Source: Adlercreutzia sp. ZJ176 (lineage in GTDB: Bacteria > Actinomycetota > Coriobacteriia > Coriobacteriales > Eggerthellaceae). From it: DNA of 64,000 nt. The notes under the pieces were generated by a model. It was not told the DNA's origin and made no database searches. It worked only from the letters and a program-made list of their open reading frames with translations. Every line of letters starts with the position of its first letter. Within the stretch, counting starts at the first letter, position 1. Position numbers and translations under genes: made by a program. Of this stretch, positions 35,386 through 42,365 are shown one piece after another. Location: positions 62,001-126,000 of the forward strand of contig NZ_JAAKEC010000004.1 of NCBI RefSeq assembly GCF_011038975.1, written 5' to 3'.

Positions 35386-35405
35386 GAGCTTGCAAGCGAA
35401 AGCAA

Positions 35406-35435
35406 GCGGGCGGCGGGGATGTTCCCGCCGCCCGC
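35406..35435 (-). terminator. Terminator of the AAA-VWA-LRR-TetR operon
   Basis: Arms 35406-35417 and 35424-35435 (GCGGGCGGCGGG and its complement) form a 12-bp stem with a 6-nt loop, followed on the minus strand by TTGCTTT. It lies about 30 bp after the ATPase stop codon. A near-identical hairpin ends the molybdoenzyme operon at 54989-55014. Confidence 0.7.
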
Positions 35436-35466
35436 GTTCCTAGGCTCGCCGAGAGGCGCGCGGACG

Positions 35467-37071
35467 CTAGGCGTTCGAGTCGGACAACCCCATCCCGACG
35501 GCGCTGCCCATGTCGAGCGCCTGCGTCTCGAGGAGCTGCGCCTCCTTGATCTCGCTCATGATGTCAGTCAGGTCGCGAACGCGCGTCCTCAGGTTCTCGC
35601 GGGCCTCGTCCACTTTGAGCTCGCCGCTCCTTGCGTAATACGCGTCGCTTCCGAAGTACGAGATGAACTGCGTCGTGATGTTCCTCGTGCTCAGCTCGGC
35701 GAGGAACATGATCATCTCGCGGCCGTTGCCGAAGCACTCCTCCACGAACTTGATGCCGTTCTCGAGCTTCTTCTGGGATTGCTCGACCAGCGGCCCTATG
35801 GCGTCGACCTCCTTGCGGTAGGTCTGGCTCACCACCGCGAACGCCGCGCTGCCCGACTCGGCTCCCTCTGCGGAGCACGCCCCCGCGATGCCGCGGATCT
35901 TGCGGAAGAAGAGCTTCTCGCCGCGCACGAAGTCCCTGACGGCAGTGCCTGCCGCCACCTTGCGCTCAAGCTCGGCTTCGCGCTTGCTCAAGGGCGTGAG
36001 CACCGCCTCCTCCACCGTCTGGCCTCCCAGCAGCTTCGGCTTCGCGGCCCTCAGCTCGTCGCGCATCGCCAGCACGAGCTTCTGCTGGTCGAGCGCCTTT
36101 GCGCACTGCGTGGAGAGCGCGTCCAGGATCAAGCTGAGGAGGGCGACGCGCTCGTCGAACGGGGCGTCCTTGGCGCGGTTGACCACGTCAAGGCTCGCGT
36201 CCCCGTCGAGCACCTGGCTGATCTGGTAGTCCGAGCGGTACTTCTCGAACAAGGTGTAGTACACGGAGAAGCGGTCCGCGATGTCCTCGTCGCGCAGGAA
36301 CTGGGAGAAGAGGACGTCGTTGCACGCGACCCCCGACTCCTCGTAGAGCGCTATGACCTTTGCCAGGTCCTCCCACCCGCGCGCGGTGACGAAGCTCTTG
36401 CCCCCGCCCGGCTTCGACTCGACCTTGTAGAAGCAGTCGGGCTTGGCCTGCAGGAAGGACGTGACGACGGGGTGGATGCCCTTCTCGGCGGCGTAGCGCC
36501 CCCAGACGGCATAGTCGGGCTCTACGTCCAACTCGCGCAGGCGGTCCAGGATCACGACGTCGAACTCGTGGACCGACCGGTTGTACTCGGGCGGGTTGCC
36601 GGCGCACACCACCACCCAGTTGTCGGGCACTTTGTGGCGTCCGAACGTCTTGAACTGGAGGAACTGCAACATGGAGGGGTAGAGCGTCTCCGACACGCAG
36701 TTGATCTCGTCCAAGAAAAGGATGCCGCGCTCTTCGCCGGTTGCCTCCATGTAGTCGTATATCGCGCCCACGATCTCGCTCATCGTGTACTCCGAGGCGT
36801 CGTATTCCAGCCCCTTGAACTCGCGATGGACTATGTGGGGCAGGCCGAGCGCGCTTTGGCGCGTGTGGTGGGTCATCGAATATGAGACGAGGCCGATCTG
36901 CAGCTCCTGGGCGATCTGCTCGATGATGGCGGTCTTTCCTATGCCGGGGGCGCCGACGAGGAACATCGGGCGCTGCCGCTCCGGCTCGATGATGTACATG
37001 CCCGCGTCATCTTGCCTGAGGTAGGCGTTCACGGTCTCCTTGATCTGCTTTTTCGCTGTGGCGATGTCCAT
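35467..37071 (-). CDS. MoxR-like AAA+ ATPase partnered with a DUF2201/VWA protein
   Basis: 534-residue cytoplasmic ATPase. Walker A GAPGIGKT is at about residues 40-47, Walker B ILFLDEIN near 119, and a sensor-like VVVCAGNPPEYN follows. The C-terminal ~250 residues are helical, with heptad-like stretches. MoxR-family ATPases act as chaperones that load or activate partners through a von Willebrand A domain, and the VWA partner is encoded 9 bp upstream. The pair is widespread but its client is generally unknown. It is the last gene of a TetR-LRR-VWA-ATPase operon and is followed by a strong terminator. Confidence 0.9.
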   Translation of the reverse strand: MDIATAKKQIKETVNAYLRQDDAGMYIIEPERQRPMFLVGAPGIGKTAIIEQIAQELQIGLVSYSMTHHTRQSALGLPHIVHREFKGLEYDASEYTMSEIVGAIYDYMEATGEERGILFLDEINCVSETLYPSMLQFLQFKTFGRHKVPDNWVVVCAGNPPEYNRSVHEFDVVILDRLRELDVEPDYAVWGRYAAEKGIHPVVTSFLQAKPDCFYKVESKPGGGKSFVTARGWEDLAKVIALYEESGVACNDVLFSQFLRDEDIADRFSVYYTLFEKYRSDYQISQVLDGDASLDVVNRAKDAPFDERVALLSLILDALSTQCAKALDQQKLVLAMRDELRAAKPKLLGGQTVEEAVLTPLSKREAELERKVAAGTAVRDFVRGEKLFFRKIRGIAGACSAEGAESGSAAFAVVSQTYRKEVDAIGPLVEQSQKKLENGIKFVEECFGNGREMIMFLAELSTRNITTQFISYFGSDAYYARSGELKVDEARENLRTRVRDLTDIMSEIKEAQLLETQALDMGSAVGMGLSDSNA

Positions 37072-37080
37072 GGTGGCTCC

Positions 37081-38808
37081 TTAACTCAGTTTGCTCTCGA
37101 AGCGGTTGATGCCTTCTTTGTCGATCAGGACGCGCATGGCCCAGGGGGGCACTTTGGGGATGTAGTTGTCGCCGTCGTCGAGGAACACGAACGCCGTGTC
37201 GTAGTCGGGCACCTTCTCGGGGAAGTCGCCGATCCCGTCTGTGAAGTAGATGATGCCCTTCAGGTCGGACAGTTCGCCGTCCCGCTTCAGCTTGTCGACG
37301 TAGCTGAAGGCGGGGCGGAAGTCGGTGCCGCCCATTCCCCGTATGACGAAGCCCTCCATGAGCCGGTCGACGTCGCGCAGGTCGCTTATCTTCGTGTCGG
37401 ACTGGACTTTCGCATCGCACTGTATGACGTGGATGTTCACCTCGTGCGAGCAGTCCTCCTGCTTCTTCAGGATGCTGAACGTGTGCTCGACGAACTTCTT
37501 GACGAGCTCCCCCTCGCATGACTCGGACGTGTCGATGCAGATGGCGAAGTCGCGGATGTGGTTCGTCTCCTTGTACTCGAGGGGCTCGATGAGCGGCATG
37601 TCGCCGTACAGGCTCAGCCCGTAGGTGTAGAAGACGTAGTCGAACTCGTCGTCGTTGATCTTCATCTCCTCGGAGAGGGAGGCGAAGCGCCGCAGGAAGT
37701 CGGAGTAGTCGGCCTTCTTCCTGTTGGCTGCGGCCAGAAGCTTCGTGAAGTCGCCCGCTTCGCAGCCCCACGACGCCGAGAAGGTCTCCAGGTCGGTCTC
37801 CACCTGCTTGGCCAGCTCCTCCCAGCTGCGCTCTCCCTCGTCCTCCTCGGGGTCTCGCGTCGACTCGTCGACCTCGTCGCGCGGGTCGTCTGTTTCGTCC
37901 GCCTCGCTCGTCTCGGCGTCGCCGCGCTCGCCGTCTGCGTCCTTCGCTCCGGACTCGGAGCTCTCCGAGGTGTTCGGGGCGTCTTCGCCCTCCCTGCCGT
38001 CGGCGTCATCGTCTGGCGAGCTGTTGTCGTCCTGCCCCTCGGAGAGGTCGTACACGTCCTGGCGCTGCTCGTCCTGCGACGACGAGTCTCCGCCCGAGCC
38101 GCTGTCCCTGCCGTCAGATTCGCGCTTGTCGTCGGAGCTCTCGACGGTGCAGCTGTCATCGTCGGGGAGCACCGTCTTCAGCTGCGGCTTGTACGAGGGC
38201 CATCCGCGGTGGTAGTCGCGCTCGAACAGCGCGTGGAGCTCGTTCAGCCTGGCTCCGCTCACCCTCAGCTCATCGGGGCCCTGGGCCCACCTGAGCGAAC
38301 GCGTGAAGAGGCCGTACAGGTTGCCGGGCGTGAGCTTTCCCCCGCAGAGGCGGCGCAGCTCCTCCAGGGCGGCCCTGCGCTCCCCGTCGAGGGGGCTCGC
38401 GAACCGCTTCCCGCAAAGCTCCATGGCGGCATGCTCCGCCACGACGTCGCAGACGAGCCACCACGCCTCGACGTTCCCGCGGGTCGTGTCGTAGGGGTGG
38501 CGGAAGAGGCAGTGCATGACGGAATGCAGGTAGTCGCGCACGACCTCGTCGAACCCGGCGTCGAAGCGCCCTATCACCGTGTAGGGGTCGTAGTAGACGT
38601 ACGTCCCGTCAACGGCCAGCGCGTAGCGCCCGATGTTCTCCGTGAGCCGGGGCTCCATCTTCCAGAGCGCGATGTCGAGGAAGCGGAACTTCATCATGAG
38701 CTGGACGCGGGCTTCGTCGACGATCTCCAGCGCTATGCGCTGGGCCTGCTCGAAGCGGTCCTCTTCGTCTTGCAGCTTCTGCGGGAGGCTGCTGGATGTG
38801 GCGGTCAT
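37081..38808 (-). CDS. DUF2201-type putative metallopeptidase with C-terminal VWA-like domain
   Basis: 575-residue protein. The N-terminal part (to ~200) has a zinc-peptidase-like helix with H95, H99 and H104 (HSVMHCLFRHPY), but no glutamate in the usual HExxH position (S96), so catalysis is doubtful. A long, highly acidic Asp/Ser/Glu-rich linker follows (about 200-325). The C-terminal VWA-like domain has a MIDAS-type DTSES and FTDGIGD. This is the COG3864 arrangement that accompanies MoxR ATPases. I start at the ATG at 38808 (20 bp after the upstream stop); a frame to 38862 overlaps the LRR gene. Confidence 0.85.
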   Translation of the reverse strand: MTATSSSLPQKLQDEEDRFEQAQRIALEIVDEARVQLMMKFRFLDIALWKMEPRLTENIGRYALAVDGTYVYYDPYTVIGRFDAGFDEVVRDYLHSVMHCLFRHPYDTTRGNVEAWWLVCDVVAEHAAMELCGKRFASPLDGERRAALEELRRLCGGKLTPGNLYGLFTRSLRWAQGPDELRVSGARLNELHALFERDYHRGWPSYKPQLKTVLPDDDSCTVESSDDKRESDGRDSGSGGDSSSQDEQRQDVYDLSEGQDDNSSPDDDADGREGEDAPNTSESSESGAKDADGERGDAETSEADETDDPRDEVDESTRDPEEDEGERSWEELAKQVETDLETFSASWGCEAGDFTKLLAAANRKKADYSDFLRRFASLSEEMKINDDEFDYVFYTYGLSLYGDMPLIEPLEYKETNHIRDFAICIDTSESCEGELVKKFVEHTFSILKKQEDCSHEVNIHVIQCDAKVQSDTKISDLRDVDRLMEGFVIRGMGGTDFRPAFSYVDKLKRDGELSDLKGIIYFTDGIGDFPEKVPDYDTAFVFLDDGDNYIPKVPPWAMRVLIDKEGINRFESKLS

Positions 38809-38828
38809 GGCATCACCAGGCAATCTGT

Positions 38829-41453
38829 CTACAGGTCGTAATCGAAGACGCTCTCTGAGCACATCAGGCGCTTCGTCTCCAGGAGATGGGCTGACGTCGC
38901 GGCGTCCCGCAGGGCGGTGACGCGCTCGATTATCTCGTCGAGGTTATCGGGGTTCACATAGCCCCTCTCCACCAGCTCGTCGAAGGTAGCTCGGTCGTCG
39001 TGCAGGGCGACGTCGACGCTGATGTCCACGATGTTGTTGCGGACGATCCGCTCCAGCGACGTCCTGTTCGCGGCGGTGAGCATGAACGGGTCCTCGAGCC
39101 TGTCGAGGATCAGCCTCACCTGCTCATAGGCGCTGATGTCGTCCTTTTTGTCGCGCGTGATGACGTAGCTGTGCGCGTTCGCCAGGCATATGTCGAGCTG
39201 CTCTATGATGCCGGGCACGTTCACCCAGTTCGCGCCTCCGAGGCCGACTGAGATCCCGCGGATGCCGCTCTGCGTGTTGGGGAAGCGGAAGTCGAAGGCG
39301 CACCTGCCTTCCAGAGGCGTTGCAAGCTCGACGTGGATGCGCTCTATCCAGCATCGTACCGACAGGCCGCTTGCGCCGATGACCTTGAGGTCGGGGTTCA
39401 GGGACAAGAGCTCTATCCCGCGGGCGTTGTTGAACGCGTAGTCCTCGACCCTCACGATCTCGTCGGGGAACACCACTTCCGGCTCCGAGCCGGCGAAGAT
39501 GACGACGGAGTCACCGCGCTCTGACCTTCTGCACAGCATTCCGCACGCCAGGTAGAAGATGTCGTTTTCGGGGGACACGTCGATGCGCGCGAGAGACGGC
39601 ACGCCCCTCCCGTAATGCGCCCCCTCCGTCACCAAGGCCCTGTCTCCGAGCGACTCCAGGCTCGCGGGTATGCGGACCTCCTCGAGGTTCGTGTCGAAGA
39701 ACGCCTCGTCTCCGATGGCCTGCACGGAGTCGGGGATGCTCACGTGCCTCAGGTTCTTGCACACGCGGAACGCCGACTCCCCGATGCTGCGAACCGTGTC
39801 CGGGATGCGCACGCGCGTGATGCGGTCGTGGAAGGCGAAGGCCATCGGCTCGATCGCGACGGCGCCGTCGTAGACGCTGTAGATCTCCTTTTCCGCGTCG
39901 ACGAGCTGCACGAGGTGGGCTCCGTCGGCCTCTCTCCGGTAGAGGCCCCCCTCTCCGTCGTAGAACTGGTCCTTCGAGCGCTCGTCGACGGCGAACGTGC
40001 AGCGAGGACCCGAATGCACGATGTTGGTGCCCCTCGTCACGGACGTTCCGATGTGCCTGACCGTGGCGGGGACGGTCAGGCTGTCCAGCGACGACCCTCG
40101 AAACGCCGCGTCTCCGATTGACTCGAGCCACTCGTTCAAGACGGCCTCATGGAGCCGGGCGCAGTAGAAGAACGCCTTGTCCTCGATGCTCTTGAGGGAC
40201 GCCGGCGCTACGAACCGCTCCATGCCGGTGTCGGAGAAGGCGAACGGGCCTATCCTGACGACCGAGTCCGGCAGCGAGACGCGCTCGAGGCCCTTGAACC
40301 CGTGGCAGCATTTCTCGCCTATGACCTCGCATCCCTCCGCCACGGAGAGCTCTTTGCGGGGGCACGCGAGGGCGATCATCCGCTTGAAGTCGGCAGAGTA
40401 TAGCGCGGAGCCGTCGGTGGCGATGAACGGGTTCTCCTCGCTCACGATGACTTCCGCGAGGACCGACCCCTGGAGGGCGCCCGCGTCGATGCTTCGAACG
40501 GCCTTCCCGATGACGAGCTTCTTGAGCTTCCCGCTGCTGAGAACGCCTCTCTTGATCCGCTCGAGTCCTCCGGGAAGCACGAGCTCCTCGAGGTTGGGGC
40601 ATTGGTCGATCCAGCTCGCATCGAAGTCGGAGACGCTCTTCGGCAGGACGAGCCTTCTCAGGTTCGCGTTGCGCCGAAAGGCCCCGCTGCCTACCATCTC
40701 GATGCCGTCCGCGCAGATGATCTCCTCTGCCGCAACGTTGCCGGAAAGGGCGCTCGACGCTATCGCGAGGACGGGCACGTCCTCCACCTCCGCTGGGATG
40801 CTCAACGTGGGCGTTGCGGCTTTGACGCCGGTGATCTGCGCGCAAGAGCCGCCTATCACCACGTAGCGCCAGACGCTGCCGTCCGAGGTCTGAATCGAGC
40901 GCTCGCTTGACCTGCTTCCCTGCAGGGTCCCTCGCTGGCGGCGGCTGAAGCCGGCGCGCTTGTCGCCGATCTCCGCGATCTCCTTGAGCTGGGTGTCGCT
41001 CAGCGCTATGGCGGCCCCGCTGTCTGAGAAGCCCGTCGGGATCATAGACGGGAAGACCAGCCTGCTCCTGCCGCCCTCCTCCACGACATGGGGCCCCTCG
41101 TAGGGCTCGGCGTCAGGCTCATCCGGCTCGAGGGCTGTCCGCACGTTGCCGGCGATGTCGAATCGCCGGTTCGGCTCTATCTCCTCGGAGTGGAGGACGC
41201 AGTACCTCAGCCCCTTGGGAGTGGCGCGCAAGTTCGCGACGGGAAAGCTGCCGCGGTTGAGGACCTCGTAGGCGATCAGCCCGCGCGCGATCATCTCCTG
41301 GTAGGCTTCGCTGCCCTCGAGCGTCGACAAGGGCAGGTCGGTCGACTGCGTGCGCATGTTGTCCTGTCTCAGGGAGATGTTGTACAGGAGCACCTCTCGG
41401 TCTGCGGAGAGCCGGCCTTCGGCCAGGATCTCTTCATCGAACATCGTCAACAT
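38829..41453 (-). CDS. Large BspA-like leucine-rich-repeat (LRR_5) protein without export signal
   Basis: 874 residues. From about 215 to 700 it consists of TpLRR/BspA-type repeats of the form A-F-x(5)-L-x2-V-x-I-P-x-S-V-x2-I-G (for example SIGESAFRVCKNLRHVSIPDSVQAIGDEAFFDTNLEEVRIPASLESLG). BspA-like proteins are normally secreted and surface-bound, but here there is no signal peptide, anchor or transmembrane helix. The first ~190 residues may form a separate domain with a winged-helix look, and the last ~130 are helical. It lies between the tetR and VWA genes in one operon, so an intracellular recognition or scaffold role with the MoxR-VWA pair is my inference. AAGGAG precedes the start at 41453. 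Confidence 0.85.
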   Translation of the reverse strand: MLTMFDEEILAEGRLSADREVLLYNISLRQDNMRTQSTDLPLSTLEGSEAYQEMIARGLIAYEVLNRGSFPVANLRATPKGLRYCVLHSEEIEPNRRFDIAGNVRTALEPDEPDAEPYEGPHVVEEGGRSRLVFPSMIPTGFSDSGAAIALSDTQLKEIAEIGDKRAGFSRRQRGTLQGSRSSERSIQTSDGSVWRYVVIGGSCAQITGVKAATPTLSIPAEVEDVPVLAIASSALSGNVAAEEIICADGIEMVGSGAFRRNANLRRLVLPKSVSDFDASWIDQCPNLEELVLPGGLERIKRGVLSSGKLKKLVIGKAVRSIDAGALQGSVLAEVIVSEENPFIATDGSALYSADFKRMIALACPRKELSVAEGCEVIGEKCCHGFKGLERVSLPDSVVRIGPFAFSDTGMERFVAPASLKSIEDKAFFYCARLHEAVLNEWLESIGDAAFRGSSLDSLTVPATVRHIGTSVTRGTNIVHSGPRCTFAVDERSKDQFYDGEGGLYRREADGAHLVQLVDAEKEIYSVYDGAVAIEPMAFAFHDRITRVRIPDTVRSIGESAFRVCKNLRHVSIPDSVQAIGDEAFFDTNLEEVRIPASLESLGDRALVTEGAHYGRGVPSLARIDVSPENDIFYLACGMLCRRSERGDSVVIFAGSEPEVVFPDEIVRVEDYAFNNARGIELLSLNPDLKVIGASGLSVRCWIERIHVELATPLEGRCAFDFRFPNTQSGIRGISVGLGGANWVNVPGIIEQLDICLANAHSYVITRDKKDDISAYEQVRLILDRLEDPFMLTAANRTSLERIVRNNIVDISVDVALHDDRATFDELVERGYVNPDNLDEIIERVTALRDAATSAHLLETKRLMCSESVFDYDL

Positions 41454-41471
41454 CGGCGTTTCCGCTCCTTC

Positions 41472-42176
41472 TCATGCGCCTGCCTGTGCCTTCGCGCTCG
41501 GCGCGGGGTTCTGCTTTGGGCTGGCTGCCGCGGCGCCGGACAGCCTTGCCTTGAGCTCGTCGAGCAAGCGGGCGTCAGGGCGCCCGTCGTCGAGCGTCCC
41601 GTCGAGGTCGAACGGCTCGGCTGCGCCGTCATGGAACGCCTCGAGTATCTGAAGCGACTTCGAAGGCGCGTCTATCTCGAAGCCCTGCTTGATCGAGTAG
41701 TACATCAGCTCGTAGAAGCCGCCCCATACTTCGATGACGCGCTGCGATCGGGACTCGAACGCCGGGCGCGTGGGGTCGAGGTTCTCCAGGCCCCATTCGT
41801 AGTGCCCGCGCATCAGCTCGTCTGCCAGCTCGCGGTCCTTGAGCATGTCGTAGAGGAGGCGCCGGCCGCCGTCCTTGCTGAGCAGGTAGCCGTAGTAGAG
41901 GCATCCGATGCGGTGCGCGTCCAAGTAGCTCAACTGCGAAGGGGTCCCGTACCCGACGATGCCGAGCATGTCGGCGATCGTCGACAGAAGCCCGTTCAGG
42001 TATTCGGCGGCGAAGTCCATCTTGCGCGGGTAGTAATGCTGGACGAGGGCCCTCGAGATGCCGGCCTCCTCGGCCACGAGCTGATACGAGGTCGCGTCAA
42101 GGCCCCTGGTGACGAGGCTCTCTCGGATCACAGCCTCCAAGCGCTTCCTCAGCTCAGGGTTTTTGGTTCGCGGCAT
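41472..42176 (-). CDS. TetR-family regulator of the LRR-VWA-ATPase operon
   Basis: 234-residue TetR protein with a clear N-terminal helix-turn-helix (RGLDATSYQLVAEEAGISRALVQHYYPRKMDFAAEYLNGLL). The ligand domain is unassigned and the C-terminus ends in an Ala/Pro-rich tail. It is the first gene of the four-gene operon, 18 bp before the LRR gene. The 38-bp nested palindrome over its promoter is the obvious operator, so the operon is probably kept off until an inducer binds. Confidence 0.92.
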   Translation of the reverse strand: MPRTKNPELRKRLEAVIRESLVTRGLDATSYQLVAEEAGISRALVQHYYPRKMDFAAEYLNGLLSTIADMLGIVGYGTPSQLSYLDAHRIGCLYYGYLLSKDGGRRLLYDMLKDRELADELMRGHYEWGLENLDPTRPAFESRSQRVIEVWGGFYELMYYSIKQGFEIDAPSKSLQILEAFHDGAAEPFDLDGTLDDGRPDARLLDELKARLSGAAAASPKQNPAPSAKAQAGA

Positions 42177-42208
42177 GCCCAGCCTTTCGAGTCGACTTCA
42201 CGATGCTG

Positions 42209-42246
42209 CCGTATTAAATACTATACGTGTATAGCTGTCAATACGG
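42209..42246 (-). promoter_or_regulatory. Nested palindromic operator overlapping a near-consensus promoter
   Basis: Outer arms CCGTATT/AATACGG (42209-42215, 42240-42246) and inner arms CTATAC/GTATAG (42221-42226, 42229-42234) are symmetric about the same centre. On the minus strand a perfect -35 TTGACA (42237-42242), 17-bp spacer and TTTAAT -10 (42214-42219) lie inside it. Binding of a TetR dimer (or two) here would block transcription completely. Confidence 0.85.
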
Positions 42247-42285
42247 AAAGCTCGGCCAAGCCCCCTTCGCGTGGGGGAGAAAGCA

Positions 42286-42365
42286 CCGCTTGTCGTTCGT
42301 AACGTCAGAGCAGGCGGAACTGACTACTCAGGCTCCCAGCCGAAGCGCGCGAAGGTACGGCGCCG
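42286..42365. repeat. Right boundary repeat of the 35.4-42.3 kb block (intact 3' end of the MBL gene)
   Basis: 42327-42365 is identical to 35347-35385 in the same orientation, and 42286-42299 matches 35288-35301. This copy contains the real stop codon of the MBL hydrolase (42324-42326 is TAG on the minus strand). The layout is what integration into the 3' end of a gene leaves behind. Confidence 0.85.

Follow-up and report, generated by a model that had tools for sequence, protein, structure and literature searches.

Pairs of a MoxR ATPase and a VWA protein are widespread, and substrates are known for few of them. The closest described counterparts of the locus reported here are the MoxR-vWA ternary conflict systems, which the relevant passages of one paper define with VMAP, iSTAND, FtsH or a beta-propeller as the third component (PMC7159879), and to which the corresponding passages of a second add iSTAND2 and TERNS3, with the third gene 5' of the MoxR-vWA pair (PMC8195603). 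An LRR (leucine-rich repeat) third component is not named in these passages, and the term appears once in PMC7159879, in a reference title. We analyzed a 64,000-nucleotide stretch of the genome of Adlercreutzia sp. ZJ176 (the window), in which a minus-strand operon (35467-42176) runs from tetR through an LRR_5 gene and a DUF2201/VWA gene to a MoxR-like AAA+ gene (Table 1). Our best reading is that it represents a genuine cytosolic system of three parts that is conserved across many genomes, built on the MoxR-vWA ternary plan and equipped with an interchangeable recognition subunit. A search of the available literature found no published description of an LRR, DUF2201/VWA and MoxR set; DUF2201 came up in four papers, once or twice in each.

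Like the ternary conflict systems, the set combines a MoxR-clade AAA+ protein, a vWA partner and a conserved third protein. It differs from them in the nature of that protein, which is LRR_5 in the window and LRR_5, ankyrin, DUF6273, DUF4132 or without a Pfam family in relatives; by Pfam on the window and the scanned relatives it is not VMAP, iSTAND, FtsH, a beta-propeller, iSTAND2 or TERNS3. Unlike those systems, the third component ends in an F/Y/L-x-L tail, the VWA protein is of the DUF2201 type without a C-terminal effector, and the set was found mostly in gut-type anaerobes. RavA-ViaA, NorQ-NorD and CoxD-CoxE likewise join an AAA+ protein to a VWA co-chaperone with an intact metal-ion-dependent adhesion site (MIDAS), but here a third gene is nearly always beside the pair, and where the AAA+ profile matches solved structures it does so mainly around the P-loop. 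The AAA+ protein has 21 Pfam matches, and the LARA domain specific to RavA does not appear in that list, a comparison that counts only if Pfam includes a LARA model. In E. coli, YehL-YehP and the neighboring YehI place a MoxR ATPase, a VWA protein and a DUF4132 protein in one region, and one Clostridial third component (L176) is also a DUF4132 protein; profile comparison, however, aligns the P-loop alone with YehL and finds nothing significant with YehP. With homology limited to the P-loop of YehL, membership in the YehL-YehP group is not supported.

The earlier note on this DNA had attached the LRR protein to the ATPase-VWA pair, and a co-occurrence check in two genome samples, which partly overlap, bears this out. 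The first sample, 100 genomes including that of ZJ176, was searched with MoxR; matches at E ≤1e-3 were found in 54 genomes, strong in 46 and weak only in 8. We followed 66 MoxR open reading frames (ORFs), leaving out 19 matches (9 fragments and 10 confined to the P-loop), and called a pair informative when a VWA gene lay within 3.5 kb of MoxR and the available sequence extended 1 kb or more on both sides. Two ORFs lacked a VWA gene at this distance and another 13 had a flank shorter than 1 kb, which left 51 informative pairs. The second sample, from GTDB, consisted of the best 80 loci of at least 586 confirmed stretches in a MoxR alignment search and covered Eggerthellaceae, related Coriobacteriia and Clostridia (Lachnospiraceae, Oscillospiraceae and others); 4 of its 82 MoxR ORFs lacked a VWA gene and 14 had a short flank, leaving 64. 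An LRR-profile gene lies within 700 bp of the pair in 48 of the 51 informative pairs from the first sample (the one at L088 has no Pfam family) and abuts it in 60 of the 64 from the best GTDB loci. Because the LRR gene adjoins the pair this consistently, LRR, VWA and MoxR are a conserved core.

When other tailed third genes are counted with the LRR genes, the first sample reaches 50 of 51, with replacements at L091 and L094 and no third gene in the stretch examined at L085; with LRR or another third gene, the GTDB sample reaches 63 of 64, the exception being L166. After removal of identical MoxR proteins, the LRR gene adjoins 97 of 104 distinct informative pairs across both samples, in Eggerthellaceae, related families and Clostridia, so that chance or neutral clustering of unrelated genes can practically be dismissed. 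The first sample contains 1 LRR ORF farther than 700 bp from the pair and the second contains 9, with flanking sequence beyond 3.7 kb totaling 199 kb and 342 kb, respectively; the LRR_5 matches listed per genome range from 0 to 25 across 41 relatives, several per ORF. Within the 2.72-Mb genome of ZJ176 itself, LRR_5 occurs in 3 ORFs, and because 2 of the 3 adjoin the genome's two MoxR/VWA pairs, the grouping in the operon goes beyond chance. The second MoxR/VWA/LRR copy is on contig C16, and its MoxR is 62% identical to that of the window, with a C-terminal methyltransferase added. Across 47 loci, the MoxR, VWA and LRR distances correlate (r of 0.83, 0.85 and 0.97, with 0 of 999 permutations as high). 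Most Eggerthellaceae loci carry LRR-VWA-MoxR on one strand; in Clostridia the LRR gene lies 5' of the pair, between VWA and MoxR, or 3', and some loci have 3-5 LRR genes. A separate Actinomycetota sample gave a match at E ≤1e-60 in 10 of 396 genomes, all Eggerthellaceae and ZJ176 among them.

The LRR repeats had been taken as the defining element of the set, a view that the survey does not support, as ankyrin, DUF6273 or DUF4132 proteins can take their place. Five replacement partners (L091, L094, L134, L168 and L176) were chosen by eye after the LRR count. At L094, which has no LRR gene beside the pair, a neighbor carries the C-terminal domain of the window LRR protein (E of 1.4e-7), and so does the ankyrin protein that forms the third component at L134 (5e-5). 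The DUF4132 protein of L176 gives E values of 0.46 with the first profile and 8.3e-6 with a Clostridial profile, the DUF6273 protein of L091 has a similar end with a nonsignificant domain match (1.8), and the third component of L168 has a similar end only, matching neither profile. The Clostridial profile found matches in 15 of 16 Clostridial genomes, 11 of which had supplied profile rows. Of six matches on other contigs that we followed, L242 and L244 sit between the VWA and MoxR genes of further pairs; L240, L241, L243 and L245 show no pair in the stretch examined, an absence that contig ends limit, and may be orphan tail-domain proteins. The same search also matched ORFs at L233 and L238, which we take from their sequences to resemble translational GTPases.

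Beyond this helical domain, most third components share a short C-terminal tail. In the clade of the window most LRR proteins end in FDYDL, FDFDL, VDFDL or VDFSL, in a divergent clade in RFAL or near variants, and in Clostridia in EFTLDW, KYSI, LDLDL and others. A pattern of the F/Y/L-x-L type fits 82 of 106 nonredundant third components, compared with 10 of 435 flanking ORFs, not all of which can be real genes, and 4 of 84 VWA proteins; of the 24 third components outside it, 12 have a similar end but no acidic residue in range. An exact search for D[FY]DL followed by a stop gave 3 matches in the ZJ176 genome: both LRR proteins and one that reads TGG in place of the stop. As the motif is limited to the two LRR proteins, we rejected the idea that the tail labels a wide range of ZJ176 proteins.

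The LRR protein looks cytosolic. Hydropathy, a heuristic and not a dedicated predictor, shows no export-type or membrane segment in the window protein, in agreement with the claim of the earlier note that it lacks an export signal, and 136 of 140 LRR ORFs are alike in having no export-type segment (some ORFs are identical between samples). A clear N-terminal export-type segment is present in three, two at L146 and one at L161, and a fourth high value, at L150, is the product of a frame extended upstream. A Foldseek search with the window model placed bacterial LRR structures (4gt6, 4fs7, PcpA and TpLRR) at the top of its list; the whole-model search is driven by the repeats and is uninformative on both end domains. 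The protein thus resembles BspA-type LRR_5 surface proteins in its repeats and these structural matches, and differs from them in its lack of an export segment by hydropathy and in its additional N- and C-terminal domains and tail. In the AlphaFold2 (AF2) model a disordered linker separates the N-terminal domain from the solenoid, and at 15 loci residues 8-105 correspond to an ORF of their own, 115-211 aa long.

Other LRR proteins at related loci vary in architecture. Two Clostridial proteins encoded just 3' of MoxR (L146, 9503-11008; L161, 9528-11012) begin with an FVTNSSSSSFI motif, and this FVTNSSSSSF start yielded no lead. The open frame at L058 (3096-7103) unites a domain of an oxidoreductase dependent on flavin adenine dinucleotide with an LRR protein, either as a true fusion or as a frame effect. 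Lachnospiraceae loci L141, L154 and L157 have 2-4 LRR genes with a common N-terminal domain, weakly ankyrin-like in L154, and without the C-terminal tail.

In the VWA protein, DUF2201 scores over its cut-off (39.6 versus 26.4 bits, E of 6.5e-10), with DUF2201_N below threshold, and the frame is open as far as a GTG at 38862; we take the ATG at 38808 as the start because orthologues begin there. The AF2 model (predicted local distance difference test, pLDDT, of 75.7) has its disordered acidic linker at residues 209-317, and in the PDB it matches integrin I domains along with further domains of the VWA type. The window protein carries the MIDAS motifs DTSxS and GGTDF; the MIDAS pattern is present in 135 of 137 VWA proteins, and 128 of the 137 carry GGTDFR or GATDFR, totals that include the window twice. 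Since the VWA domain extends to the C-terminus, by Pfam and in the model, there is no C-terminal effector. Typical DUF2201_N members carry an HExxH motif. In the 45 commonest variants among the 137 VWA proteins this metallopeptidase motif is absent, HxxxH occurring without the Glu, and H95, H99 and E125 are invariant across 55 aligned proteins, which suggests that the N domain keeps a metal site without the catalytic base.

The AAA+ protein retains its Walker A and B motifs, and VSYS[MI]THHTRQSALGLP occurs in 16 of 16 aligned proteins. Its profile finds midasin as the best solved structure (5.6e-8, P-loop region only), and its bpMoxR match stays below the cut-off (22.3 versus 27). One MoxR-like subgroup has short Cys-rich tails such as CGCGSCSGC (L035, 4007-5662; L060, 4965-6671; L061, 5120-6799). 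A C-terminal methyltransferase domain is found on 23 of 66 MoxR ORFs in relatives and 21 of 82 in the GTDB sample (44 of 148, in samples that share genomes), and 15 further ORFs at the examined loci encode the methyltransferase separately, although at least L069 and L174 look like the second half of an assembly-interrupted MoxR ORF. The fusion is frequent in Eggerthellaceae; in the C16 copy of ZJ176 it spans 8126-10576 of L044. The domain is related to arsenite methyltransferases yet scores well under the curated ArsM cut-offs (61 and 98 versus 263 bits), and we found no match to it in the window. The operon had been described as self-contained; this does not hold as a general property, as the methyltransferase and a separate small gene accompany many Eggerthellaceae versions.

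The tight spacing of the four genes stands, with ORF coordinates in exact agreement with gaps of 18, 20 and 9 bp in operon order, and so does the single near-consensus promoter, TTGACA-N17-TTTAAT, which can be read at 42241-42213. The automatic promoter scan omits it, since its rule requires the second base of the -10 box to be A; TTGACA is also present 5' of tetR in Adlercreutzia sp. ZJ473. The proposed terminator fares less evenly: a strong hairpin of 12 GC pairs does lie at the operon end, but the scan total (7 terminator-like sites versus 6.1 expected by chance) is barely above chance, so the hairpin weighs only through its strength and place. A palindrome, CTATAC-RY-GTATAG, lies inside the spacer of this promoter and of its ZJ473 counterpart (CTATACGCGTATAG), and with 1 mismatch 5' of tetR in Slackia sp. 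ZJ119 (CTATACATGTATAA). At up to 2 mismatches it has 1 site in the ZJ176 genome, compared with 9 for a reversed control. With a probable operator kept in three genomes and a single site in its own, the repressor looks dedicated, as had been claimed. Its standing as a member of the system is another matter: orthologous ORFs occur at 4 of 145 loci, representing three genomes (ZJ176, ZJ473 and Slackia ZJ119), a count limited by loci that end early. TetR looks like a dedicated, autoregulating local switch outside the conserved machine.

Table 1. Features of the operon and its control region in the window.
Feature	Position	Strand	Basis
TetR-family repressor, 234 aa	41472..42176	-	TetR_N 3.6e-6
Palindrome CTATACACGTATAG in promoter spacer, probable TetR operator	42221..42234		related sites in ZJ473 and Slackia
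Near-consensus sigma-70-type promoter TTGACA-N17-TTTAAT	42213..42241	-	sequence
LRR_5 protein, 874 aa, cytosolic-looking third component	38829..41453	-	LRR_5 1.3e-53; AF2 mean pLDDT 86; Foldseek
N-terminal winged-helix-like domain, residues 1-95	41169..41453	-	AF2 secondary structure; winged-helix label inferred
LRR solenoid, residues 185-722	39288..40901	-	Pfam, AF2, Foldseek
C-terminal all-helical domain, residues 728-865, also on some non-LRR third components	38859..39272	-	AF2 and profile searches
C-terminal tail with FDYDL before the stop, modeled at low confidence (flexible); probable docking motif	38829..38858	-	AF2 model, tail comparison
DUF2201/VWA protein (575 aa) with a helical N domain, a disordered acidic linker and a VWA domain whose MIDAS is intact	37081..38808	-	Pfam, AF2
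HxxxH...E site (H95, H99, E125), no Glu of HExxH	38434..38526	-	alignment
MoxR-like AAA+ ATPase, 534 aa, signature YSMTHHTRQSALGLP	35467..37071	-	AAA/AAA_5 about 3e-8 (AAA_5 3.3e-8)
Intrinsic-terminator-like hairpin, 12 GC pairs, T-containing tail	35406..35435	-	terminator scan

The operon is bordered upstream by a gene for a metallo-beta-lactamase-fold protein and downstream by genes for a phosphate transporter and a PhoU-like protein. At related loci, a radical-SAM-like gene lies directly 5' of the LRR gene (L099, 1888-2868; L100, 2542-3528; L101, 2246-3265), a label that comes from Pfam on L099 only, L099 and L100 being one assembly. An ORF of about 310 aa lies immediately 3' of MoxR at three others (L064, 10448-11389; L065, 10487-11401; L066, 10448-11416), and its L064 copy has no Pfam match.

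Judging from domain make-up and conservation, we give an even chance to the proposal that the operon encodes a cytosolic three-part machine of LRR recognition, VWA coupling and a MoxR-like AAA+ ring. In such a machine the LRR solenoid would bind a client or ligand, and the helical C-terminal domain and flexible FDYDL tail would attach it to the VWA protein, with the MIDAS metal or the retained HxxxH...E site as plausible docking points. The three proteins would form a complex in which ATP hydrolysis in the AAA+ ring remodels or releases what is bound. In related operons, the ArsM-like methyltransferase fused to or near the AAA+ protein is a possible output; in the lineage of the window, autoregulated TetR would repress the set until a small effector appears and induces it. 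Recognition combined with tail docking is, we infer, the most likely mechanism.

Several observations count against this three-part machine. The tail pattern also occurs at 20 of 74 MoxR C-termini, was composed after the tails had been inspected, and was scored on related sequences that are not independent. No F/Y/L/W-x-L/I/F end of any kind is present in 12 of the 106 third components, among them the LRR proteins of L141, L146, L148, L157, L159 and L161. At 16 loci the LRR and VWA genes are divergent and stand head to head, which leaves the LRR gene outside the operon, and common species history alone yields some correlation of distances.

The roles could instead be reversed, the LRR protein being the client and MoxR-VWA an assembly chaperone dedicated to folding or loading it for a job of its own. 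Such pairs do mature particular clients, as the passages on CoxDE and RavA-ViaA describe (PMC7159879), and NorQD does so as well; a single LRR protein per pair at most Eggerthellaceae loci would suit this arrangement, and the tail could serve as a chaperone-recognition tag. We nevertheless consider it unlikely, as some Clostridia have several LRR genes per pair, and a few loci keep the pair and a similar C-terminus although the fold of the third protein is a different one (ankyrin, DUF6273 or DUF4132), for which an adaptor is a better fit than a single client. A metal- or metalloid-handling role, in which metal or cofactor insertion falls to the pair and methylation of a small molecule to the ArsM-like domain, has a precedent in the passages on CoxDE (PMC7159879) and is in keeping with the kinship to arsenite methyltransferases, the HxxxH...E site kept in the VWA N domain and the Cys-rich tails of three MoxR proteins. 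It appears improbable given methyltransferase scores so far below the ArsM cut-off, the lack of that domain in the window and the lack of a metalloenzyme cluster common to most loci, the best-shared being of the molybdopterin type at 14 of 65 loci. Molybdopterin-type genes are abundant in Eggerthellaceae, and we set this link aside for that reason.

The earlier note had listed a conflict device among its options, which would make the LRR protein the invader sensor of an anti-phage or other conflict system built like the MoxR-vWA ternary ones, the methyltransferase acting as effector in relatives. The overall plan does match that of the published passages, and presence is patchy (46 of 100 genomes, some with several copies, many assemblies being incomplete). 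Among 104 flanking ORFs, PADLOC models matched no more than four each, such as mad2 (4), Orf5 (3), HEC-06 (3) and type IV restriction (3), and the commonest Pfam families shown were molybdopterin-binding (Molydop_binding, 6), transporters (4) and methyltransferases (4), while GmrSD_N was present in 3; these counts stand without a control set and neither establish nor exclude a defense setting. The other families among the 25 shown of 129 are of transport, molybdoenzyme, UvrB, trigger factor, HypF and similar types. Against a conflict role, the four operon proteins give weak PADLOC matches only (the best, IetA, at 2.9e-6 over AAA+ residues 6-62), and the VWA protein has no C-terminal effector domain. 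Between the window and ZJ473, the ratio of nonsynonymous to synonymous substitution rates is 0.27 for TetR, 0.28 for LRR, 0.25 for VWA and 0.13 for MoxR, and thus shows no arms-race signature. No plasmid record covers 80% of MoxR, and viral matches amount to one distant contig and four short unannotated fecal "phage" records that cover more than 80% of MoxR at 40-43% identity and could be bacterial DNA. With weak PADLOC matches, an LRR ratio that is not raised, mixed flanks and no plasmid record, phage defense was not taken as the leading answer, and we regard a conflict system as quite unlikely.

We return to the three-part system with an interchangeable recognition subunit. NLR/STAND receptors couple LRR recognition to an AAA+-type NTPase, and the present set is like them in plan only: its parts are separate polypeptides, its NTPase is MoxR-like rather than STAND, and a VWA protein would act as the coupler. 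More tentatively, and with somewhat less than even confidence, we suggest that gut Coriobacteriia and Clostridia possess a modular intracellular surveillance platform, resembling in plan a split NLR-like receptor, in which recognition proteins (LRR, ankyrin, DUF6273 or DUF4132, including tailed LRR proteins encoded away from pairs) plug into an AAA+/VWA engine by the helical domain and tail, with an ArsM-like output in Eggerthellaceae. For the study of MoxR-VWA pairs, the set, which is found in bacteria of the human and animal gut, offers a defined third partner, a dedicated repressor and a short candidate docking motif that lends itself to testing. If the tail is the plug, further partners could be sought by a rule based on sequence, and bacterial LRR proteins would join an ATP-driven intracellular recognition machine, beyond their place as surface adhesins.

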